Below, one piece after another: positions 34,579-46,675 of a stretch of DNA of 64,000 nucleotides. The notes beneath the pieces are model-generated. The model did not search any database. It had not been told where the DNA came from and saw nothing but the letters and a program-made list of their open reading frames with translations. The stretch's first letter is position 1. Each line of letters starts with the position of its first letter. This DNA is from Thioalkalivibrio sp. AKL19 (GTDB lineage Bacteria; Pseudomonadota; Gammaproteobacteria; Ectothiorhodospirales; Ectothiorhodospiraceae): positions 1 to 64,000 of the forward strand of contig NZ_ATUK01000018.1 of the NCBI RefSeq assembly GCF_000420165.1. The letters run 5' to 3'. The position numbers were made by a program, and so were the translations under genes.

Positions 34579-34678
34579 GGGCGCGTAGGCGGGCATAACG
34601 GCGGCGGCAGGATCGCCCGCGCATGGCGGGCCCGGCTGGTAATTTTGCGCCCAATTGTGTAGGGTTCGCTGCGTTCCT

Positions 34679-34889
34679 CGGTGCCCGGCCAGGCCTGGCT
34701 TGGCGGGTTAAACGGGAAGATCGGTGAGCCTCCAGCGGCTGCAAGGCCCGGAGACGAATCCGACGCTGCCCCCGCAACGGTGATCGAGCGAGAGACCGTC
34801 CGTCGGTTTCTGATGGTCGCGGCCAGTGCCACTGAACATGATGTTCGGGAAGGCGCCGCACCGGACGCTCGTCAGCCCGGAGACCGGCC
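34679..34889 (+). ncRNA. Cobalamin riboswitch
   Basis: Conserved blocks in order: GGTGCC start, GGGAA followed by GGTG, AATCC then CGCTGCCCCCGCAACGGTGA, GCCAGTGCCACTGAA, GGGAAGGCG, and the terminal B12 box CAGCCCGGAGACCGGCC at 34873-34889. The 3' leader to the btuB start (34890-35047) includes a GGCG-GCT-CGCC mini-hairpin next to the GGGAG ribosome site, suggesting translational control. It should repress btuB and the corrinoid genes behind it when adenosyl- or other cobalamins are plentiful. Confidence 0.95.
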
Positions 34890-35047
34890 AGGGAATGATC
34901 GCGCGGCATGCGGCGGGCATGCGAGGCGGATGATCGTGCCGGGCCGTTCGCCGGTCCTGGCCGATCCCCCTCGTGTCTGTCTCCCCCTGTCTGCGCGATC
35001 CCGACGAATCAACGGCGTGCGGGCGGCTCGCCGGGAGACTCTACACA

Positions 35048-36913
35048 ATGAAACGCACAGCACTTTCCGCGGCCATCCTGCTGGCCACCAGTCCCGCCCT
35101 GGCGGACACACCGAATACCGACGATGCCCAGACGCTGGAGACCGTCCAGGTCACCGCCTCGCGCATCGCCCAGACGGTGGACGAGACGCTCGCTTCGGTG
35201 ACCATCATCGACCGCGAAGAGATCGAGCGCCTGCAACCCCAGCAGTTCACCGATCTTCTGGAGGCGCGCGCGGGGATCGAAACCTCCCAGAATAGCGCCT
35301 TCGGCAAGTCCACTTCTGTGTATACGCGTGGCACGAGTTCCGACCATACGCTGCTGTTGATCGACAGCGTGCGCATGGGTTCCGCGACGACGGGCGGCGC
35401 AAGCTGGCAGTTCCTGCCTCCGGAAGAGATCGAGCGGGTGGAGATCGTGCGCGGTCCGCGCACCAGCATCTATGGTTCGGACGCGATTGGTGGGGTCGTG
35501 CAGGTCTTCACCCGGGAAGGCCGCAAGGGCCCGCCAAAGGTCAATGCGTTTGTTGGTGGTGGCAGCTTCAATACCTGGGAAACGGGGGTGGGGGTCGCTG
35601 GCGGTACCGACAACACGAACTACAGCCTTTCGGTCAGCCATTTCGAGACCGACGGTATCAACGTCCAGGACGGAGTGGGCGATGAAGACCGCGATGGCTA
35701 TGACAACACCTCGCTTGCCACCAAGGTCTCGCACCGGCTCGATAATGGAGTCGAGGTTTTCGGTAATGTGCTGTACTCAGAGGGTAGGTCCGAATTCGAT
35801 GGCACCGAAGATGAAACCGATTTTCGGCATGCCGCCCTTCGTGCTGGCTTGCGAGTGGCTGTAACCCCCCTTTGGGATACCGAACTCAGTGTTAGTCACA
35901 GTCGCGATGAGAACGATAATTTCAACGATGGTGTCTTTTCGTCGCGCTTCAATACGAAACGCGACGGCGTGGATTGGCGAAACGATTTCGAGATAACGGA
36001 CCGTGTTTACTTGATTGCCGGGCTTGATGCGTATGAAGACCAGGTGGATAGCACCGCCGATCACGTTGAAGATTCGCGCTACAACGTCGGTGCTTATTCC
36101 GTCGTCCAGGTTGACCTGGGTCGGCATGATCTGGAGGGCAGTCTGCGCTTTGATGACAATGAGCAGTTCGGTGACAAAGTCACCGGGCAGGTGGCTTGGG
36201 GGTTGCAGGTAACGGAACCCCTGAGATTGCGCGCTTCCTATGGTACCGCCTTCAAGGCTCCAACTTTCAATGATCTCTATTTCCCAGAGTCGTCGTCTCC
36301 GTATGGGACATATCGAGGGAACCCGGGGCTAAATGCAGAAGAATCTGAAACGGTCGAGATTGGAATGCGTTACAGCATCAACGAGTCGTATCTCGACTTA
36401 AGCGTGTTTGAAACTCACGTTGATGGTCTTATCCAATACCAATGCGTTACCAATTGTAATGACCTCAACCCCGCTACGGATGTGAACGAGCCTCGAAATG
36501 TTAACGAGGCGCGGATTCGTGGGTTGGAGATCGAGGGCGGACACGATATCGGCGCATGGAGCTCTCGTGCTGCTCTGACGATACTGGATACAGAGAACCG
36601 AGACACTGGTAATGAATTGTCTCGCCGCTCTCCTCTGACTGTCCGCTTCGATCTGGACCGTCAGTTCCAGCGCATTTCCCTCGGAGGGTCAGTAATTGCG
36701 AAAAGTCGGGCAAAGGAAGATCTGTTTGGTGGGGATCAGGCACGTTTATCCGGCTATGGGCTGTTGAACCTTCGAGCGAGCTATCAGATTCATCCGGAAT
36801 GGCAGCTTCAGGCTTCGGTCCAGAACGTGTTCGACAAGGACTACGAGACGGCGGGCGGCTACAACCAGCCGGGGCGTGCCGCGTTCGTGAAACTGCGTTA
36901 TCAGCAGAGGTGA
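35048..36913 (+). CDS. btuB: TonB-dependent vitamin B12 receptor BtuB
   Basis: 621 aa. Signal peptide ending SPALA, TonB box region ETVQVTASR, plug domain (YTRGTSSDHTLLLIDSVRMG, VEIVRGPRTSIYGSDAIGGV) and a 22-strand barrel ending in aromatic-rich QPGRAAFVKLRYQQR. Outer-membrane uptake of cobalamin. The region 35,800-36,750, coding external loops and strands, is visibly AT-richer and uses less biased codons than neighbours; it includes a CVTNC loop. Directly under the cobalamin riboswitch. The next gene follows after three bases. Confidence 0.93.
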   Translation: MKRTALSAAILLATSPALADTPNTDDAQTLETVQVTASRIAQTVDETLASVTIIDREEIERLQPQQFTDLLEARAGIETSQNSAFGKSTSVYTRGTSSDHTLLLIDSVRMGSATTGGASWQFLPPEEIERVEIVRGPRTSIYGSDAIGGVVQVFTREGRKGPPKVNAFVGGGSFNTWETGVGVAGGTDNTNYSLSVSHFETDGINVQDGVGDEDRDGYDNTSLATKVSHRLDNGVEVFGNVLYSEGRSEFDGTEDETDFRHAALRAGLRVAVTPLWDTELSVSHSRDENDNFNDGVFSSRFNTKRDGVDWRNDFEITDRVYLIAGLDAYEDQVDSTADHVEDSRYNVGAYSVVQVDLGRHDLEGSLRFDDNEQFGDKVTGQVAWGLQVTEPLRLRASYGTAFKAPTFNDLYFPESSSPYGTYRGNPGLNAEESETVEIGMRYSINESYLDLSVFETHVDGLIQYQCVTNCNDLNPATDVNEPRNVNEARIRGLEIEGGHDIGAWSSRAALTILDTENRDTGNELSRRSPLTVRFDLDRQFQRISLGGSVIAKSRAKEDLFGGDQARLSGYGLLNLRASYQIHPEWQLQASVQNVFDKDYETAGGYNQPGRAAFVKLRYQQR

Positions 36914-36916
36914 TCC

Positions 36917-37471
36917 ATGGGTAATCGACTGTCGAAGATTGCGACCCGCACGGGTGACGAAGGCCGAACCGGCCTTGGTGACGGCTCGCGGGTGGACAAG
37001 GACTCGCATCGCGTCGAGGCCTTCGGTGATGTGGATGAACTGAACAGCGTCGTGGGTCGCCTTTTGATCCACGACCTGCCCGAGGAGGTTCGTCGGAGCT
37101 TGGCCCTGGTGCAGCACGAGCTGTTCGATCTGGGTGCAGAGCTGGCGGTGCCGGGTCATCAGGCCTTGCCCGATGCCTCGGTCGAACGACTGGACGTCGA
37201 GCTGGAGTCCTTCAATGCGGATCTGCCGGCCCTGAAGGAGTTCATCCTGCCGGGCGGTGGGCCCGCCGCGGCGGATTGCCATATCGCGCGTACCGTGTGT
37301 CGGCGCGCCGAGCGGCGGCTGGTGGCGCTCAATCACCACGAGGCATTGCGCCCCGGTTCGCTGGCCTACATCAATCGGCTCTCGGATCTGCTGTTCATCC
37401 TCTGTCGCGTGCTGGCGCGCCACGAGAACGGGCAAGAGGTTCTCTGGCAGCCGGCGAACCAACGCGGCTGA
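36917..37471 (+). CDS. pduO: Corrinoid adenosyltransferase, PduO type
   Basis: 184 aa. ATP-binding N-terminus IATRTGDEGRTGLGDGSR, then VDELNSVVGRL and the helical-bundle motif ARTVCRRAERR...INRLSDLLFILCRVLAR. Converts cob(I)alamin and ATP to adenosylcobalamin in the cytoplasm. It belongs to a different, unrelated fold from the CobO-type enzyme encoded 6 kb downstream in the same cluster. ATG is three bases after the btuB stop. Confidence 0.92.
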   Translation: MGNRLSKIATRTGDEGRTGLGDGSRVDKDSHRVEAFGDVDELNSVVGRLLIHDLPEEVRRSLALVQHELFDLGAELAVPGHQALPDASVERLDVELESFNADLPALKEFILPGGGPAAADCHIARTVCRRAERRLVALNHHEALRPGSLAYINRLSDLLFILCRVLARHENGQEVLWQPANQRG

Positions 37472-37506
37472 GACGTTCTCGGTCCCGAGCCAGCAGCCCG
37501 CGTAGC

Positions 37507-37565
37507 CGGGTGCCGTGTCGACGGCACCCGCACTTGTTGCCGAATGGCCCGATGCCGGGCCATTC
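37507..37565 (+). repeat. Two consecutive perfect 10-bp stem-loops between pduO and the cobN-like gene
   Basis: First hairpin: CGGGTGCCGT / ACGGCACCCG with loop GTCG (37507-37530). Second: GAATGGCCCG / CGGGCCATTC with loop ATGC (37542-37565). They sit in the 136-bp gap inside the corrinoid operon. Neither is followed by a T-run of terminator quality. They could be partial terminators, mRNA-stabilising structures or an attenuator setting the pduO:cobN ratio. Confidence 0.6.
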
Positions 37566-37607
37566 CGGCGAACTCACGGCTTGATCTCGTATTCGGAGAG
37601 TTCCTGC

Positions 37608-40600
37608 ATGCCGTTTCTTCTTCCTGTCGTTTTGCTTCTTCTCGCGGTCTTTCCTGCGGGAGCCCTGGCGGCCGATGACCCGAAGATCGTTGGGGTGGTG
37701 TCGGATCGCTCCGCGGCGGAGGTGACAGCCGGGGCGCACCGGTTCCTCGAGTCCCATCCGCACGCCGAGATTATCCTGCGCACGCCCGAGCAGCTGGCGG
37801 ACAAGTCCGATGGTTCGCTGACGGCATTGTGGCGCGATGCCGATGCTGTGCTGGTCGCGGCAGTGTTCGGTGACGAGGCAGGGCGGCTGGAACGCCTGCT
37901 GCGGGCCGAACCACCCGCCGACGGGGTGCCGATCCTGGCGATCAACAGCGAACGCCGCCTGACGGTGTTGTCGCGCATCGGCGGCGACGCCGTGCTGGAA
38001 GGGCTGGATGACGATGCCCGTACGGAGCTGGCCGAGAACCCCGAACCCGGCGAGGACCCGCGCGATCATCTGACAAAGCAACAGGAGCGCTTTCCCGAGC
38101 AGGCGGACTGGCTAAAGGGCCGTGCGTTGTATCAGGGGCGCACGCCGGAGAACATGGAGGGCCTGATGCGCTGGCTGGCCGCGCACGGCGGCCACGCGAT
38201 CGACGTGCCCGATCCGGACCCGCGCGAGACCATCCGTTATTACCGTCATGGCGGTTCCAGTCCCGATCCGGACGCTCTCGACCTGGAGGCGGGTCCGGCC
38301 GTGGCGCTGCTGGATCTGGATACCGGTGACCGGCCGGGCGACCGCGCCCTGCTGGATGCGGCCTGTGAGGCCCTAGAGAACCGAGATATCCAGTGTTTTG
38401 TGGTGCTCGCGCGCTGGGGCGGGGCGAGCCGCGAAGCGGTCGAGACCCTCGCGGATGCGACCGGACCGGCGAATCTGGCGGGGGTTGTCAGCCTGCAGGA
38501 CTTCGTGGTCGGCGGGGGTGGCAACCGCGAGGCGGTGGCCGAGGCCTTCGGCGAGCTGGATGTCCCGGTGATCAAGGGCATCCGACTGGCGGCCGTGAGC
38601 GCGACCCAGTGGCGGCTGTCGCACGAAGGCATCCCCTGGGACAAGGTGCACTACCACGTGGCCATGCCGGAGTTGCAGGGCATGAGCCAGCCGATGGTGC
38701 TGGCAGCCGCGGGCACCCCGGAACAGGACGAACGCACGGGCGTGCGCCTGACACTGACCGAGCCGGTCGGCGAGCGTGTCGAGGCCCTGGCCGACCGGGT
38801 CGCTCGCTGGCAGCGTCTGCGCAGCCTCGACAACGCGGACAAGCGGGTGGCGGTCGTCTACTACAACCATCCGCCGGGTCGCCAGAACATCGGCGCCGAC
38901 AAGCTGGACGTGCCCGAGTCGTTGCTGGAGATCCTGCAGAACCTGGAGGCGGCCGGCTATGACCTGGGGGGCACAGTGCCGGAGGATGCCGAAGCCCTGC
39001 TGGACATGATCCAGGACCGGGCGGTGAACCTTCCGGAGCAGGCGGACGCGCTGGACGCGATCGCCGGCCGGGTGCCCTCGCTCGATCGCGAGCAGTACCA
39101 GGCCTATTTCGACACCCTGCCGGAGTCGATCCGGGCCGAGTTGGTGGATGGCCCGATCGGCTATCTGCAGGCGCGCCTGGGGGCAGCCAAGGCCGCCGAC
39201 AAGGTCGAGCTCGCTCAAGCCGCGCTGGAAAGCGGCGTTGGCGATCTGCGCCACATGCTCGAGAGCTATCCGCACGCGGCCCAGGACCGGGCACTGGACC
39301 TGCTGGCCCAGTACGAGGAGGCCTGGGAGGCCACGCTGGCGGGGGAAGACGCGCATGCTACGACCGAGCAACTGCGCAAGGCGCTGGTGCGTACGGGCAT
39401 CCCGGGCCTGACCGGCTGGGGCGAGCCGCCGGGCGAGGCGATGACCCGCGACGGCGAGATGCTGTTCCCCGGGATCGAGTTCGGCAACGTGTTCATCGGG
39501 CCGCAGCCGACGCGTGGCTGGGAGGTCAGCGAGCGCCTGCTGCACGCGAATACCACCTTCCCCCCGACCCACCAGTATGTCGGCTTCTACCACTGGATCC
39601 GCGACCACTTCGAGGCGGATGCACTGGTCTATGTCGGCCGCCACTCGACCCGCGAATTTCTGCCGCGCCGGCGCGCGGGGCTGGCGCCGGATGACTACCC
39701 CGAGATCCTCGGGGGCGCCCTGCCAATCATCTATCCCTACATCGTCGATGGCGTGGGCGAGGGCATCCAGGCCAAGCGCCGCGCCATGGGCGTGATGATC
39801 AGCCACCTCACCCCGCCACTGGCGGCCACGGAGCTGTACGACAGCCTGCTGGAGCTGCGTCAGCTGGTGGAGACCTACGAGGCCGCCGCGCAGCCGGATG
39901 CCGCGACGCGCTCGCGAGCCGTCCAGACCCTGCGCGAACGCATCGAGGACCTCGGCCTGACCGAGACCATCGAGCGCGAGCTGGCCCGGGGCCATCACCA
40001 CGATCACGGGCATCACCATGATGACCACGGCGATCACCACGAGGGCCACCACGACGCGTCCGACTCCGGGGATGGGGAAGGGCATGCGGACGAACACGGC
40101 GATGAGCATCGCGATGCGGACCATCACCGCGAACACGGGGAAGAAGAACACGAACACGCTCATGAGCATGACCACGCGGACGAGCATGCGCACGAGGGTC
40201 TTGACGAACACACAACGACTCCGCTGGCCGAGATGGACGAGGAGTTGCTGGTCCACGAGATCGGTCACTATCTGACCGACATGCAGGAAGACCAGATGCC
40301 GCTGGGGCTGCATGTGTTCGGGCGTGACTGGAGGGACGAGGCCGTGGACACGATGCTCGAGTCGATGGCGGGTGACGACGCGTTCGGCGGCGACTGGGAC
40401 GCCAAGCTGCGTGGATCCCCGGCCAGCGAGCGCGCGCATCTGCTGGCGGCGCTGGAAGGCCGTTTCGTGCCGCCCGGGCAGGGAAATGACCCGATCCGCA
40501 CTCCGGAGGTATTGCCGACCGGGCGCAACTTCCATGCGCTGGCGGCGGATCTGGTGCCCACACGCATCGCCTGGGGCATTGGCCAGGAACTGGCCGCGGA

Positions 40601-42158
40601 TGCCCGCGCGCACGGCGATCCCGAGGCGGATGGCAGCGAGGCGATCATCCTCTGGGCATCGGATACCGTGCGCGACGAGGGCGTGATGATTGCCTTCGGC
40701 ATGGACATGCTGGGCATCCGCCCGGCCTGGAACAGCCGCGGGATCGTCCAGGGACTGGAGCGCATGGACCTCGACGAGGCCGGGCGCGATCGCCGTCGCG
40801 ATGCCCTGTTCACCACCTCCGGTCTGTTCCGCGACCTCTACGAGGATCAGCTGGTGTGGCTGGATCGCGCCGCCCGCCTCGCGCTGGACGGCTCGTCCGA
40901 GATCATTCTTGAGGAGCACCCCGAGCTGGAAGAGGCACTGGACGCGGCCCTGGCCCCGCTGGGGCCGGACCTGCGCGATCCGGGCGCCGAGCCGCTGGCG
41001 CGCAACGACGTGGCCGCCCAGTGGGTGGAAGACACCCAGGCCCTGCGCGGCGCAGGCCTCAATGGCGTCGAAGCGGGTCAGCAGGCCGCGCTGCGTGTGT
41101 TCGGTACCGCCCCCGGGGCCTATGGGGCCGGGGTCAATCGTCTCGCGGACCGTTCCGGTGCCTGGGAGGACCGCGCCGAACTGGGGGCGGCCTACCTCCG
41201 CCGAATGGGTCATGCCTATGGCGCGGATGAGTCCGGTGGCTCCGCACACGAGGCGTTCGAGGCCCGTCTGGGCCAGGTCGGGCGCACCTACCTTGGGCGC
41301 GCCTCGCACCTCTACGGCCTGCTGGACAACGACGACGGTTTCGATTTCCAGGGCGGGCTGTCCACCGCGGTCGAGAGCATCCGCGGCGCGGTGCCGGACA
41401 ACCGCGTGCTGCAGCACGCCGATCCGGACGACCCGCGGGTGGAGACCCTCGGCCGCGCGCTGATGCGCGAGCTGCAGGGGCAGAACCTGAACCCGCAGTG
41501 GATCGAGCCGCTGATGGATCACGGCTATGCCGGGGCGCGCACGATGGCGCGGGATTTCGTCGACAACCTTTGGGGCTGGCAGGTCACCAACCCGGAGATC
41601 ATCCGCTCCTGGGTCTGGGACGAGGTGCACGACGTGTATCTGCAGGACCGCCACGGGCTGGGCCTGGACGCGTTCCTGGCCGACGGCCACAACGTGCACG
41701 TGAAGACCCATCTGCAGGCCGTTCATCTGGTCGCGGCGAACCACGGATTCTGGGACGCCGATCCCGAGGTGCTGGATGCCCTGTCCAAGCGCTTCGCGGA
41801 ACTGGTCGTCGAGCATGGCCTGCCGGGCAGCGGCCATACGCGCCCGGACCATCCCATGCTGGACGAGGTGGCCGAGCGCCTGGACGACGCTGACCTGCGC
41901 GAGGCCTTCGAGGCGGTGCGGGCGGCCGCGCAGATCGACCGGGCGGAGCCCGAGGCCGACCCCAGTCGCGCCACCGAGATCCAGCCGCTGGAAGACCCTA
42001 CCGCGCAGGAGGTGCAGGAGATCCCCGAGCCGGCCGAGGCCGACGGCGGCCAGGAGACCGGCGACGAGGCGGCGGGCATGCCCTGGCTCCCCTGGCTGGT
42101 TGCCGCTGCGCTGTTCCTGCTGCTGCTCGGCGGCATCGCCACGGGCCGGCGGCGTTAA
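37608..42158 (+). CDS. Exported, membrane-anchored CobN-like chelatase with His/Asp/Glu-rich insert
   Basis: 1516 aa, longer than typical CobN (about 1,250-1,300). Signal peptide at residues 1-22 (LLPVVLLLLAVFPAGALAA) and a C-terminal membrane helix (LPWLVAAALFLLLLGGIATG) before RRR, so the enzyme body lies in the periplasm. CobN-family stretches include PVIKGIRLAAVSATQWR, KRVAVVYYNHPPGRQNIGADKLD, GPQPTRGWE, LVYVGRHSTREFLPRR and YPYIVDGVGEGIQAKRRA. Residues about 794-865 are a metal-binding-like insert dominated by His, Asp, Glu. Not a cytoplasmic CobNST subunit; resembles HmuS-type chelatases. Likely handles cobalt or corrinoid/tetrapyrrole metal outside the cytoplasm; the direction of reaction is unknown. 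Confidence 0.85.
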   Translation: MPFLLPVVLLLLAVFPAGALAADDPKIVGVVSDRSAAEVTAGAHRFLESHPHAEIILRTPEQLADKSDGSLTALWRDADAVLVAAVFGDEAGRLERLLRAEPPADGVPILAINSERRLTVLSRIGGDAVLEGLDDDARTELAENPEPGEDPRDHLTKQQERFPEQADWLKGRALYQGRTPENMEGLMRWLAAHGGHAIDVPDPDPRETIRYYRHGGSSPDPDALDLEAGPAVALLDLDTGDRPGDRALLDAACEALENRDIQCFVVLARWGGASREAVETLADATGPANLAGVVSLQDFVVGGGGNREAVAEAFGELDVPVIKGIRLAAVSATQWRLSHEGIPWDKVHYHVAMPELQGMSQPMVLAAAGTPEQDERTGVRLTLTEPVGERVEALADRVARWQRLRSLDNADKRVAVVYYNHPPGRQNIGADKLDVPESLLEILQNLEAAGYDLGGTVPEDAEALLDMIQDRAVNLPEQADALDAIAGRVPSLDREQYQAYFDTLPESIRAELVDGPIGYLQARLGAAKAADKVELAQAALESGVGDLRHMLESYPHAAQDRALDLLAQYEEAWEATLAGEDAHATTEQLRKALVRTGIPGLTGWGEPPGEAMTRDGEMLFPGIEFGNVFIGPQPTRGWEVSERLLHANTTFPPTHQYVGFYHWIRDHFEADALVYVGRHSTREFLPRRRAGLAPDDYPEILGGALPIIYPYIVDGVGEGIQAKRRAMGVMISHLTPPLAATELYDSLLELRQLVETYEAAAQPDAATRSRAVQTLRERIEDLGLTETIERELARGHHHDHGHHHDDHGDHHEGHHDASDSGDGEGHADEHGDEHRDADHHREHGEEEHEHAHEHDHADEHAHEGLDEHTTTPLAEMDEELLVHEIGHYLTDMQEDQMPLGLHVFGRDWRDEAVDTMLESMAGDDAFGGDWDAKLRGSPASERAHLLAALEGRFVPPGQGNDPIRTPEVLPTGRNFHALAADLVPTRIAWGIGQELAADARAHGDPEADGSEAIILWASDTVRDEGVMIAFGMDMLGIRPAWNSRGIVQGLERMDLDEAGRDRRRDALFTTSGLFRDLYEDQLVWLDRAARLALDGSSEIILEEHPELEEALDAALAPLGPDLRDPGAEPLARNDVAAQWVEDTQALRGAGLNGVEAGQQAALRVFGTAPGAYGAGVNRLADRSGAWEDRAELGAAYLRRMGHAYGADESGGSAHEAFEARLGQVGRTYLGRASHLYGLLDNDDGFDFQGGLSTAVESIRGAVPDNRVLQHADPDDPRVETLGRALMRELQGQNLNPQWIEPLMDHGYAGARTMARDFVDNLWGWQVTNPEIIRSWVWDEVHDVYLQDRHGLGLDAFLADGHNVHVKTHLQAVHLVAANHGFWDADPEVLDALSKRFAELVVEHGLPGSGHTRPDHPMLDEVAERLDDADLREAFEAVRAAAQIDRAEPEADPSRATEIQPLEDPTAQEVQEIPEPAEADGGQETGDEAAGMPWLPWLVAAALFLLLLGGIATGRRR

Positions 42159-42192
42159 CGGCTGGGGGCGGGAAATCCCCGGGCCCTGTACT

Positions 42193-42263
42193 TGTAGGAG
42201 CCGAGCCCTCTCGGCGATTGCGGCATCGGCCACGCCCCATCGGCCAGAGGCTGGCCTCCTACA
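42193..42263. repeat. REP/BIME-like inverted element
   Basis: TGTAGGAG (42193-42200) and CTCCTACA (42256-42263) bracket a GC-rich imperfectly palindromic core containing CCGAGCCCTCTCGG and GGCCAGAGGCTGGCC. GTAG-starting palindromes of this kind are typical REP elements mobilised by RAYT transposases. It lies in the 150-bp gap between the CobN-like gene and the ExbB-like gene, inside the operon. I saw no second copy in this window. Confidence 0.6.
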
Positions 42264-42308
42264 GAAGGCCGTACGAATGGCTGAACAAAGGTTAGTGAGG
42301 TAAACCGA

Positions 42309-42752
42309 ATGTCTTTCTCGATCACGATGGAGCTGATGGACACCGTGGTGCGCTGGCTGCTGGAGCCGGTAATCGTCGGCCTGCTGGTGCTGGTCGCGGT
42401 GGCCGTCTGGGAGCTCGGGCTGGCCCTGGGTGAACGCTCCGGTGGGGTACGCCGCTTGGAATTGAGCGGCGATGTCGAACGCCTCGCCTACCGTGCCCGG
42501 CGGCGCATCGACCGCGCCGATCTGCTGGCGCGCATCGGACCGATGCTCGGGCTGATGGGTACGCTGATCCCGCTGGGTCCGGGGCTGGCCGCGATGGGTC
42601 GGGGCGAACTGGAAATCCTCGCCCAGGCCGTTACGGTGGCGTTCAATACCACGGTTCTGGGGCTGCTGGTCGGCATTCTCGGCTTCCTGCTCGGGCGCCT
42701 GCGTCGCCGCTGGTATGACGCGGCGATGGAGCGTATGGAGGCGGCGGCATGA
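42309..42752 (+). CDS. MotA/TolQ/ExbB-like proton-channel protein
   Basis: 147 aa, three hydrophobic segments (about residues 18-36, 72-95 and 108-130). The last two, with LLARIGPMLGLMGTLIPLGPGLAAM and AQAVTVAFNTTVLGLLVGILGFLLGRLRRR, match the ExbB/TolQ channel core. GAGG lies eight bases upstream. It is immediately followed (ATGA overlap) by a DUF2149 gene, the arrangement seen behind HmuS-type chelatases. Presumably uses proton flow to drive the CobN-like protein or an envelope partner; inferred from context. Confidence 0.82.
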   Translation: MSFSITMELMDTVVRWLLEPVIVGLLVLVAVAVWELGLALGERSGGVRRLELSGDVERLAYRARRRIDRADLLARIGPMLGLMGTLIPLGPGLAAMGRGELEILAQAVTVAFNTTVLGLLVGILGFLLGRLRRRWYDAAMERMEAAA

Positions 42753-43039
42753 GGGTCCCGCACTACCGCGCCTCGCGCTTCGACGCGCCCGACGAGGAGC
42801 CGATGGGCCCCTTGGCCAATCTGGCCGACATCATGCTGGTGTTCGCCGTCGGCCTGATGGTGGTGATGGCCGCATCGGGCAGCGGGCTGGAACCGGCCAG
42901 TGGCGGTGCCGAGATCGAACCCGGGCGCGAGATCCCGGATCCTCCCGCCGGCGCCGGCGAGGCTGGCTCGGGTTTTGAATCCATGGGGCAGGTCTACCGC
43001 GACCCGGAGACCGGCCGGATGATCCTGATCGGCGAATAG
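42749..43039 (+). CDS. DUF2149 family protein (ExbD-like position)
   Basis: 96 aa with one membrane helix (about residues 27-47: LADIMLVFAVGLMVVMAASG) preceded by a short cytoplasmic stretch, and a periplasmic tail ending GQVYRDPETGRMILI. This N-in single-span topology is like ExbD/TolR, including an Asp (LADIM) at the start of the helix where ExbD carries its essential Asp. DUF2149 proteins accompany ExbB-like and CobN-like proteins. Together the pair could form a small energising complex. Confidence 0.8.
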   Translation: MRVPHYRASRFDAPDEEPMGPLANLADIMLVFAVGLMVVMAASGSGLEPASGGAEIEPGREIPDPPAGAGEAGSGFESMGQVYRDPETGRMILIGE

Positions 43040-43098
43040 CCATTCCCGGGGCCGTCCGAACCCCCGTATGACGCAACGATGCAAGGAGTAACAAGAAC

Positions 43099-43713
43099 AT
43101 GAGCGACGACACCGAAGCGGCTCGCGCCGAACGCCACGCTCAGCGCATGGCGCGCAAGAAGGAGATCGTGGACCGCAAGATCGCCGAGGCCCAGGAGGAG
43201 AAGGGCGTGTTCCTGATCCTGACCGGCAACGGCAAGGGCAAGAGCTCCTCCGGCTTCGGCATGGTGGCCCGGGCCCTGGGGCACGGCATGCACGTGGGCA
43301 TCGTCCAGTTCATCAAGGGGCAGTTCGCCACCGGCGAGGAGGCCTTCTTCCGCGGTCAGGACAACGTGCAGTACCACGTGATGGGCGAGGGTTACACCTG
43401 GGAGACCCAGGACCGCGAGAAGGATGTCGAGGCCGCCCGCGATGCCTGGGCGCATGCCCGCGACATGCTGCGCGATCCGAACGTCGACCTGGTACTGCTC
43501 GACGAGCTGCACATCGCGCTGAAATACCAGTACCTGGACGTGGCGGAGGTCCTCGATGACCTTGCCAACCGCCCGCCGATGCAGCACGTCATCACCACCG
43601 GCCGCGCCGCGCCCAAGGCCCTGATCGAGGCGGCCGATACCGTCAGCGAGATCGGCGTGGTCAAGCACGCCTTCCAGGCCGGCATCAAGGCACAGAAGGG
43701 CATCGAGCTGTGA
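43099..43713 (+). CDS. cobO: Corrinoid adenosyltransferase, CobO/BtuR type
   Basis: 204 aa. P-loop LTGNGKGKSSSGFGMVARALGHG, substrate region VQFIKGQFATGEE, and LLDELHIALKYQYL with the Walker-B-like Asp-Glu. Adenosylates cob(I)yrinic acid diamide or cobalamin. The N-terminal 30 residues are a charged helix as in BtuR. AAGGAG lies ten bases before the ATG. It is a second, non-homologous adenosyltransferase in the cluster (PduO at 36917). Its stop overlaps the cobB GTG. Confidence 0.94.
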   Translation: MSDDTEAARAERHAQRMARKKEIVDRKIAEAQEEKGVFLILTGNGKGKSSSGFGMVARALGHGMHVGIVQFIKGQFATGEEAFFRGQDNVQYHVMGEGYTWETQDREKDVEAARDAWAHARDMLRDPNVDLVLLDELHIALKYQYLDVAEVLDDLANRPPMQHVITTGRAAPKALIEAADTVSEIGVVKHAFQAGIKAQKGIEL

Positions 43714-45002
43714 GTGCGAGCTGCCCCGCCGCGTTCGTGGCGGCCCCGGCCTCGGGCCAGGGCAAGACCACGATCACCGCCGCCATCGCCCGTTACCATC
43801 GCAACCAGGGCCGGCGCGTGCGCGTATTCAAGACCGGCCCCGACTTCCTCGACCCAATGATTTTGGAGCAGGCCTCCGGCCATCCGGTGGATCCGCTGCA
43901 CCTGTGGATGGTCGGCGAAGCCGCCTGCAAGGCGAAGCTGTACGAGGCCGCCCAGGAGTCGGATCTCATCCTGGTCGAGGGCTCGATGGGTCTGTTCGAT
44001 GGCGATCCGTCCGGAGCGGATCTGGCCGTCCGCTTTGGCCTGCCGGTGCTAGCCCTGATCGACGCCGGGGGCATGGCGCAGACCTTTGGAGCGATTGTGC
44101 ACGGGCTGGCGACCTACCGCGCGGACTTGTCCCTTACGGGAGTCATCGCCAACCGCACCGGTAGCGCGCGTCATGGCCAGATGCTGGCCGAGAGCATGCC
44201 CGCGGGCGTGCACTTCTACGGCGCCGTCCCCCGCAACGAAGAACTCAGCGTGCCGGATCGCCACCTGGGCCTGGTCCAGGCCGGCGAGATCGACGATCTC
44301 GATGCCCGGCTGCAAGCGGCGGCGACCGCGATCGAAGAGGCCGGCGTCACGGAGCTTCCAGCACCGGTCACGTTCGAGCCCGAGCCGATGCCGGAGATCG
44401 CGCGCGAGCTCGAGGGCGTTCGGGTCGGTATCGCGCGGGATGCCGCGTTTGCGTTTACGTATCCCGGCAACCTGGATCTGCTGCGCGCGTTGGGGGCCCA
44501 ATTGGCGTTCTTTTCTCCGGTTGCAGGGGATCGTCTTCCAGACGTCGATGCGGTTTGGTTGCCCGGTGGATACCCGGAACTGCACCTGGACACCCTGGCG
44601 GCCAATACCGGGCTCAAGGAAGACCTCGCCAAGCATCAGGCGGCGGGGCGACCGTTGCTCGCCGAGTGTGGCGGTTTTCTCTATCTGCTGGATGAACTGA
44701 CGAACCGGGACGGTCACAGCGCGCCCATGGCCGGTCTGATTCCGGGGCAGGCCCGGTTGGAATCGAAGTTACAGGGGCTGGGGCTGCAGAGCGCCCCGTT
44801 TCCCGAGGGTGAGCTTCGTGGCCACACCTTCCACCACACCCATGCGGATGTGGAGTGGGAGCCGATTGCCCATTGTCGGCGTGCCCGAGACGGGGGAACG
44901 GCCGCCGAGGCCATCTACCGAGAGGGGCGCCTGACGGCGGGTTATCTGCACGCGTACTTTCCCTCCAATCCCGATGCCGTGGCGGGTCTATTTCGGGGCT
45001 GA
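43710..45002 (+). CDS. cobB: Cobyrinate a,c-diamide synthase
   Basis: 430 aa. N-terminal dethiobiotin-synthetase-like ATPase (VAAPASGQGKTTITAAIARY, LVEGSMGLFDG) and C-terminal glutamine amidotransferase domain with LPGGYPELH and catalytic Cys in LAECGGFLYL, His in LHAYFPSNP. Amidates the a and c side chains of cobyrinate. GTG start overlapping cobO. Its presence implies corrinoid ring processing rather than only uptake of complete B12; the rest of the cob genes are not in the window. Confidence 0.93.
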   Translation: MSASCPAAFVAAPASGQGKTTITAAIARYHRNQGRRVRVFKTGPDFLDPMILEQASGHPVDPLHLWMVGEAACKAKLYEAAQESDLILVEGSMGLFDGDPSGADLAVRFGLPVLALIDAGGMAQTFGAIVHGLATYRADLSLTGVIANRTGSARHGQMLAESMPAGVHFYGAVPRNEELSVPDRHLGLVQAGEIDDLDARLQAAATAIEEAGVTELPAPVTFEPEPMPEIARELEGVRVGIARDAAFAFTYPGNLDLLRALGAQLAFFSPVAGDRLPDVDAVWLPGGYPELHLDTLAANTGLKEDLAKHQAAGRPLLAECGGFLYLLDELTNRDGHSAPMAGLIPGQARLESKLQGLGLQSAPFPEGELRGHTFHHTHADVEWEPIAHCRRARDGGTAAEAIYREGRLTAGYLHAYFPSNPDAVAGLFRG

Positions 45003-45153: not shown

Positions 45154-46158
45154 ATGAAGACACTTTCCGGATTCCGCGTGACGGCACTGGCCGCCTGTGC
45201 GGCACTTGCGTTCGGGGCCTCGGCGCCAGCGCTGGCCGATACGGACTACTCGCAATATCGCGACGTGTTCGAGCCGTTGCCGGCGCTGCCGCCGATCCCG
45301 GCGGACAACTCGATGACGAAAGAAAAGATCGAGCTGGGCAAGATGCTGTTCTTCGAGCCACGCATCTCCAGCTCGGGCGTGATCTCCTGCGCGACCTGCC
45401 ACAATCCGGCGCTGGGCTGGGCGGACCGCATCCCGCGCGCGGTGGGGCATGATGGTCAGGTCGGCGAGCGCAACACCCCGACGGTGCTGAACTCCGGCTT
45501 CTTCACGGCGCAGTTCTGGGATGGCCGCGAGGACGACCTGGAAGGCCAGGCGCTGGGTCCGATCCAGGACGCGATCGAGATGGCGATGCCGCTGGAGGAC
45601 GCAATCGAGCGTCTGGAAGAGTTCAACGAGTATCAGGAGAAGTTCGAGGCGGCCTACCCCGACTATGACGGCGACAACGTGATCAACACCGATCACGTGG
45701 CCAAGGCCCTGGCCACCTTCCAGCGCACGCTGAACACCCCGAACTCGCCGCTGGATCGCTGGCTGGTCGGGGACGAGGGCGCGATGAGCGAGCAGCAGAT
45801 GCGCGGGATGAAGCTGTTTGCAGACAACGGCTGCGTGGCCTGCCACGCGGGCCCGGCGCTGACCGACAGCAACTTCCATCGGATCCAGGTGCCGGGCTCG
45901 GAAGACGAGGGCCGTTACCTGGTGACCGGGGAGGAGAGTGATCGCTTTGCCTTCAAGACCCCGACCCTGCGCAATGTGGCCCTGACCTACCCCTACATGA
46001 ACAACGGCGAGACCGCGACGCTGGACGAGGCGATCCGCATCATGGGGCAGGAGATGCTGGGTATGGAGTTCAGCGACGAGGAAGTCGCGGACCTCGAGGC
46101 CTTCATGCATGCGTTGACCGGTGACATGCCGCAGTTCGAGATTCCGGCACTGCCGTAA
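45154..46158 (+). CDS. ccpA: Di-haem cytochrome c peroxidase
   Basis: 334 aa, exported (signal peptide cleaved after ALA near residue 28). Two c-type haem motifs: Cys79-Ala-Thr-Cys-His83 and Cys227-Val-Ala-Cys-His231. Conserved FFEPRISSSGVISC, RNTPTVLNSGFF, FWDGREDDLEGQALGP and FKTPTLRNVALTYPYMNNG with the haem-ligand Met. Reduces H2O2 with electrons from cytochrome c in the periplasm. AGGGAG seven bases before the ATG; perfect FNR box upstream; strong terminator downstream. Confidence 0.94.
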   Translation: MKTLSGFRVTALAACAALAFGASAPALADTDYSQYRDVFEPLPALPPIPADNSMTKEKIELGKMLFFEPRISSSGVISCATCHNPALGWADRIPRAVGHDGQVGERNTPTVLNSGFFTAQFWDGREDDLEGQALGPIQDAIEMAMPLEDAIERLEEFNEYQEKFEAAYPDYDGDNVINTDHVAKALATFQRTLNTPNSPLDRWLVGDEGAMSEQQMRGMKLFADNGCVACHAGPALTDSNFHRIQVPGSEDEGRYLVTGEESDRFAFKTPTLRNVALTYPYMNNGETATLDEAIRIMGQEMLGMEFSDEEVADLEAFMHALTGDMPQFEIPALP

Positions 46159-46183
46159 GCGAGCGGTCGCCACTGGCGATGAC

Positions 46184-46216
46184 AAGCCCCCTCCGGGTCC
46201 GGCGGGGGCTTTTTTG
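46184..46216. terminator. Rho-independent terminator of ccpA, probably shared with the DUF4399 gene
   Basis: AAGCCCCC and GGGGGCTT form the stem around a CCGG-containing loop, followed by six T on the plus strand. The adjacent minus-strand gene ends at 46223; on that strand the arm is followed by TTGTCATC, so termination there is weaker. Confidence 0.8.
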
Positions 46217-46222
46217 TGTCGC

Positions 46223-46675
46223 CTATTCGACGGTGATGGTGATCTTGTCGGAGGTCACCGGCGGGTCGAAGCTGAGGTGGCGGTAGTCCATGAAGAGCAA
46301 TTGCAGGGTGTGGGTGCCCGGCTCCAGTTCGATTTCGCCTTCTGTCTGTCCGCCTCCGAAGTGTCGCTTGTGGTCGGAGAAGGGGAGCGACGTATCCAGA
46401 TCGACTTCGTCCAGCGGTTTGTTGACCAGCAGGTGGTGATGCCCGGTGTTGTCAGCCTCGACACCGGCTGGTGCGATGCCCATGCCGCGAAGGCCCATCT
46501 GAATGCGCACGGGACTCTCGACGGTGTCGCCATCCTGTGGGCTGATGAAATACACCTTGGTCTCATCGGGGGCCGAAACGCGTTCCATGCTGGCGACATT
46601 GCCGACGGCCAGGGTGAACCCTCCAGTGACCAGGGCGACGGTTGCGAGGCGGGTGAACGAAACGGTTGTCATCAC
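46223..46675 (-). CDS. DUF4399 periplasmic protein
   Basis: 150 aa. Signal peptide (residues 1-23, TLAVGNVA) then a beta-sandwich: [22 protein letters not shown], the metal-binding-like [45 protein letters not shown]. This is the DUF4399 pattern; the clustered His may bind a metal, but the role is unknown. Starts at the first of two adjacent methionines. Divergent from gltX with a 140-base gap. Confidence 0.82.

Follow-up and report, generated by a model that had tools for sequence, protein, structure and literature searches.

Thioalkalivibrio sp. AKL19 carries, within the 64,000-nucleotide stretch analyzed here (contig NZ_ATUK01000018.1, positions 1 to 64,000; the window), a vitamin B12 operon in which a secreted CobN-like protein is encoded together with an ExbB-like protein and a DUF2149 protein. 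We tentatively read this operon as a periplasmic cobalt-insertion step for B12, with the CobN-like protein as a cobaltochelatase acting on a metal-free corrin. More generally, cobalt insertion into the corrin ring appears to take place outside the cytoplasm in a group of bacteria, mostly with a proton motor instead of the ATP-driven enzyme. Cited papers are identified by PubMed Central number and represented by excerpts of their text; loci and genomes bear our own L and G numbers.

The operon and its CobN-like protein

The operon lies on a single strand (plus, as do all window features below), and its order, a B12 riboswitch followed by btuB-pduO-cobN-exbB-DUF2149-cobO-cobB, was obtained from open reading frames and from Pfam, NCBIfam and Rfam profiles. 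This confirms the layout given in an earlier reading of the same DNA (the original prediction), in which the CobN-like, ExbB-like and DUF2149 genes were placed between BtuB and CobO/CobB in a riboswitch operon; the cobalamin riboswitch of the leader (34662..34906; RF00174, 84.9 bits, gathering score 31.5, E 1.7e-19, full-length model) was indeed present but begins 17 bases before the start proposed there, 34679. It is followed by the genes for a BtuB-like TonB-dependent outer-membrane receptor with plug and barrel domains (35048..36913), whose best match is the B12 receptor TIGR01779 (532 bits, below the curated cut-off of 599.7), and for a PduO-type cob(I)alamin adenosyltransferase (36917..37471; PF01923, and TIGR00636 with 197 bits, above cut-off). 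The CobN-like protein (37608..42158, 1516 amino acids) matched PF02514 with 801 bits, above the cut-off of that family yet below that of every matched NCBIfam CobN equivalog; ATG 37608 was taken as its start, in a frame open from 37515. Downstream are encoded an ExbB/TolQ-like proton-channel subunit (42309..42752; PF01618, 41.1 bits, cut-off 22.9), a DUF2149 single-span protein (42749..43039; PF09919, 36.7 bits, cut-off 27.1, best stretch 22 residues), a CobO/BtuR corrinoid adenosyltransferase (43099..43713; TIGR00708, 227 bits, above cut-off) and a CobB cobyrinate/hydrogenobyrinate a,c-diamide synthase (43710..45002; NF002204, 414 bits, above cut-off). The operon hence holds two unrelated adenosyltransferases, one of PduO and one of CobO type. 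The two motor genes had been described as following cobN directly; the order is right, although 150 bases (42159-42308) separate cobN from exbB. This gap holds an imperfect inverted repeat, the folding of which was no stronger than that of shuffled sequences, and in nine of ten class loci outside the genus cobN and exbB overlap or lie at most 25 bases apart.

Relatives of the operon are present in many other genera. The nearest named relatives belong to Thioalkalivibrio, where the same operon was found in 14 of 30 genomes (58 genomes searched in all). We assembled 88 loci, made up of 78 named loci, chosen as the best among 306 confirmed relatives, and 10 of the same kind from a class survey of DUF2149, in which 20 of 369 genomes matched and from which the 3.6-kb fragment L066 was excluded; the loci were chosen by likeness to the window protein and the counts below describe this group, not a random sample. 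In a tree of 56 proteins, built with a quick method that gave a long-branch warning and containing no Bacteroides HmuS, the 40 rows of this kind formed one group (Shimodaira-Hasegawa-like approximate likelihood ratio test 100), beside seven other DUF2149-linked proteins, the sister group, and apart from five canonical CobN rows; two unlabelled rows joined the sister group and two the canonical side. The sister loci (L054-L056, L058-L061) also encode a secreted CobN-like protein and ExbB, with a TonB receptor labelled nearby in six of the seven.

Signal peptides and anchors were judged by hydropathy rather than with a dedicated predictor. The window protein has a hydrophobic N-terminus, a probable signal peptide by eye (37608..37673), with cleavage placed, also by eye, between MPFLLPVVLLLLAVFPAGALA and ADD, and its C-terminus consists of one hydrophobic segment, the membrane anchor (42081..42155), followed by RRR. 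All 84 group rows with an N-terminus share the hydrophobic stretch (12-residue mean at least 1.74; none of the five canonical CobN rows exceeds 0.80), and 78 of the 88 loci have a full-length CobN frame, 56 of them with ExbB, in all of which the anchor is present. The signal peptide and anchor from which a periplasmic location had been proposed are thus supported, and homologues lacking signal peptides do not predominate.

The active-site His of the superfamily (His679 in the window protein; His538 in HmuS) is kept in 89 of 89 sequences, within a motif beginning GRHST and not HFG(T/A)HG; the pattern, GRHSTREFLP in the window protein (residues 677-686, 39636..39665), was found in all 88 loci, and many other residues are invariant across the group. 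A second motif, LLDNDDGFDFQGG (residues 1238-1250, 41319..41357), brings Asp1243 and Asp1246, by alignment, to the places of His1209 and Glu1212 of HmuS, and Asp/Asp is found in all 84 group rows covering the site. In the sister group (n=7) the first of these places is Asp in five rows and His in two (L059, L060). With the Asp pair the HmuS signature is ruled out, yet the pair is no pointer to canonical CobN either, since the canonical rows vary there, and for this reason the second motif was dropped as a sign of CobN-like identity. Sequence alignments with HmuS begin at its residue 284, beyond the haem ligands Met79 and His254; in the group alignment no invariant His or Met was seen at the expected head/neck place, nor, by eye, any Met-rich block such as the methionine-rich insertion of HmuS. 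The His/Asp/Glu-rich block of the original prediction exists (about residues 794-865, 39987..40202) and occupies the same inter-motif stretch as that insertion, the two not being aligned residue by residue; it is, however, not general, occurring in 19 of 88 loci, members outside the genus among them, and we rejected it as a defining metal store.

The ExbB-like protein was modelled as three helices (predicted local distance difference test score, pLDDT, 91.8), and its best 19 Foldseek matches were all ExbB complexes, with probabilities of 0.97-1.00 and E values of at least 0.013 (none at or below 0.001). The DUF2149 protein has an invariant Asp (Asp27) in its helix, at what we take to be the place of the essential Asp of ExbD, and is ExbD-like by place. 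Its model was poor (pLDDT 65), and its profile found nothing significant in the PDB; the chain 8qyd_F, recorded as 'Membrane protein' and presumably ZorB, matched over the Asp-bearing helix with E 1.5.

B12 salvage and ring synthesis in the genomes with the module

An Rfam cobalamin riboswitch was found upstream of cobN and on its strand in all 18 group loci scanned (of 88), and in none of seven sister loci. In Arcobacter-type loci it stands directly before cobN, though no labelled cob gene lies within about 10 kb. A B12-box pattern gave only a lower bound: of the 18 loci with an Rfam riboswitch, it came up blank in 11. The same pattern, not Rfam, marked a second B12 box near the operon in three Thioalkalivibrio relatives (L085:19141(-), L099:14644(-) and L132:20977(-)); that of L085 lies upstream of a Porin_O_P-type gene, perhaps a B12-controlled porin.

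The CobN-like protein was the sole PF02514 protein in 25 of 25 genomes tested that carry the trio (in G333 as pieces on two contigs), and the window genome (2.88 Mb, 99.9% complete) has no other. No CobT above cut-off was found in 48 genomes, CobS and ChlI not being searched separately, and no ChlD-like subunit in the 25 trio genomes, where the best match reached 47 bits; three relatives that have other CobN/BchH-type proteins gave 460-473 bits. The original view that no CobST ATPase partner can act on the protein is supported as far as CobT and ChlD-like proteins are concerned, and homologues accompanied by the cytoplasmic partners are not the rule. Among trio genomes, a single CobT-like match was seen (L107:8297-10045 in G143; 288 bits, cut-off 759), adjoining genes that by eye resemble those of sulfonate catabolism. 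Twelve module genomes with CbiC were searched for these partners and for CbiX: CobT above cut-off and ChlD-like subunits were absent, and CbiX gave no more than three weak matches (20.7-21.2 bits), whose frames, some 385 amino acids long, we took, unchecked, for ferrochelatase; CbiK was not searched.

Neighbours were counted in the 56 of 78 loci in which cobN is flanked on each side by 7.5 kb or more; a label required a phmmer match of 60 bits or more, regardless of strand. BtuB was present in 47, CobB in 45, CobO in 45, BtuF in 35, CobQ in 34 and CbiB in 32, so that the proposed link to BtuB, CobO and CobB, like that to the riboswitch, is supported beyond the window. In the Halomonas-type order, BtuB-CobN-ExbB-DUF2149-BtuF-BtuC-BtuD-CobB-CobO-CobQ, the genes follow the path of the substrate from outside to inside; BtuFCD was found beside none of the 10 Thioalkalivibrio operons. 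The precorrin-8X methylmutase CbiC was missing in 46 of 50 module genomes searched; these 50 come from the 78 named-locus genomes, the remainder being 11 Thioalkalivibrio and a further 17 that are mostly metagenome-assembly fragments. The 46 genomes probably cannot build the corrin ring by either known route, and the retention of CobB in genomes without ring synthesis implies that the a and c carboxylates of the imported corrin are still free. For gut genomes, salvage of such cobyrinic acid has been inferred (PMC6593275). At least four of the 50 genomes have a further PF02514 protein (G408, G409, G411 and G443); two of these proteins were placed (L200, L201), in the sister group, and have hydrophobic N-termini. 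Within the genus, five of the 14 trio carriers lack CbiC, although in one of them, G375, the contig breaks off shortly after CbiD, maybe an assembly gap. A role only in de novo synthesis was rejected on the basis of these 46 genomes and five genus members. In G143, a CbiZ-family protein with a signal-like N-terminus (L062:5847-7064; PF01955, 172 bits) is encoded directly after the trio and hints at periplasmic amide hydrolysis of corrinoids too.

CbiC is present in 16 module genomes: nine Thioalkalivibrio, G089, G121, G236, Halospina, Halovibrio and two Vreelandella utahensis. It was found in none of the 16 genus members without the module, several of which are incomplete genomes. Their ring clusters represent the oxygen-dependent, late-cobalt type, with CobG labelled in 15 of the 16 (in G377 with 271 bits, cut-off 234.8) and with CbiD where canonical clusters often have CobF. 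The module CobN was the only PF02514 protein seen in the 16, among the matches listed (one of four in G405 was not listed). An ATP-binding cassette (ABC) exporter pair of the ABC-2 type lies between CbiD and CobG/CobH in all 16 ring makers, and its permease was found in none of 43 control CbiC clusters (seven with CobG, 23 with CbiX; nine stretches shorter than 14 kb); two controls, L211 and L235, gave an unrelated ABC ATPase match. The controls comprise 36 CbiC places of the class sample (CbiC in 41 of 369 genomes, five of them examined earlier, three of these with the module), G106, G322 and G399, and four annotated plasmid clusters. Fisher tests gave 9e-15 against all controls, 4e-6 against those with CobG and 0.003 when four lineages instead of 16 genomes were counted, the small values being unsafe given kinship and transfer of whole clusters; the controls were taken without a group-specific CobN search of each genome. 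Furthermore, CobW was found in five of the seven CobG controls (six of 43 overall) and the cobalt importer CbtA in 13 of 43, as against none of 18 ring loci of module genomes for either; among the 95 module and sister loci scanned, CobW occurred in one and CbtA in none. The salvage setting and the exporter of the ring-making genomes go beyond what the original prediction could see.

In the window genome, ring synthesis seems to have been lost and the second half of the pathway retained. Immediately after cobB, at 45154-46675, come a MauG/MbnH-like di-haem gene and an opposite-strand DUF4399 gene, at the point where relatives have the ring-synthesis cluster. In G377 the MauG-like gene lies beyond that cluster, which makes the window genome look like a maker turned scavenger. 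In the 0.82 Mb read, no cob or btuFCD gene was found outside the operon save general ABC and CobW-family matches. The DUF2149 gene of this genome was missed by a six-frame genome search, though the profile match on the window reading frame is above cut-off.

Direction and substrate of the proposed reaction

From the genes, topology, grouping, riboswitches and co-occurrences described we infer a reaction, its direction and substrate, an export step and an energy coupling as follows. The secreted, mostly anchored CobN-like protein would insert Co(II) into a metal-free corrin in the periplasm, most likely hydrogenobyrinic acid, arriving from neighbours via BtuB or, in ring makers, via the dedicated ABC-2 exporter. 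In most lineages an ExbB-like/DUF2149 motor in the same membrane would energise the step with proton-motive force, taking the part of the CobST/ChlID ATPase, but it can be lost. The cobalt corrin would then be imported into the cytoplasm, by BtuFCD in many operons, and finished there through amidation by CobB, adenosylation by CobO/PduO, and CobQ, CbiB and others. In the excerpts consulted, cobalt is described as not removable from a corrin without destroying the corrin, and some purple sulfur bacteria grown without cobalt as making cobalt-free corrinoids (PMC6771967); taken together, these statements make a chelatase likelier than a dechelatase. The original prediction had left insertion, removal and corrinoid remodelling side by side, of which insertion is now the best supported and cobalt removal chemically unlikely. 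In the canonical order the a,c-diamide is the substrate of cobalt insertion (PMC7689651), whereas the presence of CobB in salvage genomes suggests that cobalt comes before amidation, the reverse of that order; the frequent retention of CobB together with the frequent absence of CbiC fits imported corrins that are un-amidated. In ring makers the exporter would provide the route of the metal-free ring to the periplasm, and the module would serve makers and scavengers alike. A third route to B12, in which a metal-free ring is built inside, exported by the ABC-2 pair, loaded with cobalt by a periplasmic and mostly proton-driven CobN, re-imported and only later amidated by CobB, is possible but rather more doubtful than periplasmic insertion itself.

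Several observations weigh against this interpretation. The best PDB match of the CobN-like protein is HmuS, which acts in the direction of metal removal. The Asp pair of the second motif is no mark of a cobalt inserter, because the Asp is shared by five of seven sister proteins, and canonical CobN rows vary at these places, with Asp in two of five. In Campylobacterota (L141, L144, L145 and L148) the trio stands alone behind its riboswitch, the surrounding 10 kb or so being free of labelled cob genes; later salvage genes were not found in the window genome, of which 0.82 of 2.88 Mb was read; and a CbiX-family protein (96-99 bits) is present in three trio genomes without CbiC (G072, G140 and G202). 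The exporter is tied to no more than four lineages, and it may have moved together with the cluster. Besides, all 22 full-length Marinobacter loci lack both ExbB and the anchor, and none of 21 Marinobacter genomes has a B12-type ExbB (best 33 bits, as against 181-235 bits in five of five positives), although their CobN keeps the rest of the protein, its signal-like N-terminus and its place in the operon. Anchor and motor thus go together, both or neither, and the motor is dispensable: of the earlier proposal of a proton-driven reaction the link to the ExbB-like/DUF2149 pair stands, while an obligatory motor was rejected and proton-motive force is not obligatory.

Among the closest known systems is the hmu module of Bacteroidota, and the alternative it suggests is that the protein is an HmuS-like dechelatase or metal exchanger, stripping imported corrinoids or porphyrins of a wrong metal, or of cobalt, so that the bare ring or the metal can be used. 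HmuS shares the PF02514 fold, membrane segments at both ends and a periplasmic location, the hmu operon likewise includes ExbB-like and DUF2149 genes (PMC12583661, PMC10434189) along with a TonB receptor gene, and HmuS has been shown to be a dechelatase (PMC12583661), as far as the excerpts go. The term 'HmuS-type' used earlier is apt for the gene trio and is not supported for the protein. HmuS carries LSLDHxxEFMGG, with His1209 and Glu1212, where the group has the Asp pair, and membership was rejected on this second motif, the His-bearing class rows falling in the sister group of a tree that contained no Bacteroides HmuS. The hmu operon is a haem operon, whereas the group has B12 riboswitches and B12 genes (HmuY was not profile-searched), cobalt does not leave an intact corrin (PMC6771967, in excerpt), and removal would not account for the fact that late-cobalt ring makers showed no other protein of the CobN family; we regard a dechelatase as unlikely. 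No more probable is a non-catalytic corrinoid carrier that takes its ligand from BtuB and hands it to BtuF or the inner-membrane importer, the motor driving release. The Halomonas-type gene order tracks just such a route, and in HmuS a further tetrapyrrole site lies between the head and the neck (PMC12583661, in excerpt); a carrier, however, would hardly require the invariant chelatase His and the many group-invariant residues, would again take away the one CobN candidate of the ring makers, and would explain neither the retention of CobB nor the exporter.

A metal importer, helping to bring cobalt itself into the cell, would find an analogue in Pseudomonas aeruginosa PA1922-PA1925, by description a TonB receptor, CobN-like, ExbD and DUF2149 set that appears in a list of the Zur regulon (PMC9431628, in excerpt), and the His-rich insert would suit it. 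We consider it improbable, the insert being missing from most members, and the group loci having riboswitch control rather than zinc (Zur) regulation and BtuB, BtuFCD, CobB and CobQ as neighbours. Less credible still, to the point of being nearly discounted, is an ordinary cytoplasmic CobN whose signal peptide was misread, even though a public Marinobacter record is annotated 'cobaltochelatase subunit CobN'; the N-termini, the anchors and the lack of CobT above cut-off and of a ChlD-like partner all speak against it. With the CobN of CobNST or CobN-ChlID the group shares the PF02514 fold, the active-site His and late-cobalt neighbours (CobB and CobO, and CobG in ring makers), and it differs in being secreted, mostly anchored, equipped with the ExbB/DUF2149 motor, found mostly in salvage operons and without nearby CobW. 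The plasmid pSZ77 of Geobacter (Trichlorobacter) lovleyi likewise has a CobN without CobS/CobT beside TonB receptors, ExbB and DUF2149, and its authors suggested for it a part in cobalamin metabolism that is distinct and unknown (PMC3403914, in excerpt); this protein, in contrast, falls in the sister group, on a long branch. One paper points out hmu-like operons of Bacteroidota that have a cobalamin riboswitch and surmises a link to cobalamin (PMC10100974), a likeness by description only, and CobN-like proteins of B. fragilis are called BtuS, a name traced to Rodionov 2003 via PMC6460266; both statements are taken from excerpts. We found no description of periplasmic cobalt insertion, of the salvage operons of this group or of the exporter in the open-licence papers searched.

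Implications for B12 biosynthesis

If periplasmic cobalt insertion is right, it names the missing cobaltochelatase of late-cobalt B12 makers that have no CobT or ChlD-like partner, moves one B12 step outside the cytoplasm and explains the presence of CobB in genomes that do not build the ring. Metal-free corrins would be a possible traded vitamin precursor, and one chassis, a secreted CobN fold with ExbB/DUF2149, would serve haem, perhaps zinc, and B12. The label 'cobaltochelatase subunit CobN' could make salvagers pass for producers in genome surveys. Should the third route be true as well, CobST, ChlID and CobW would not be needed, its halves would be separable, and makers and salvagers would share hydrogenobyrinic acid by cross-feeding.

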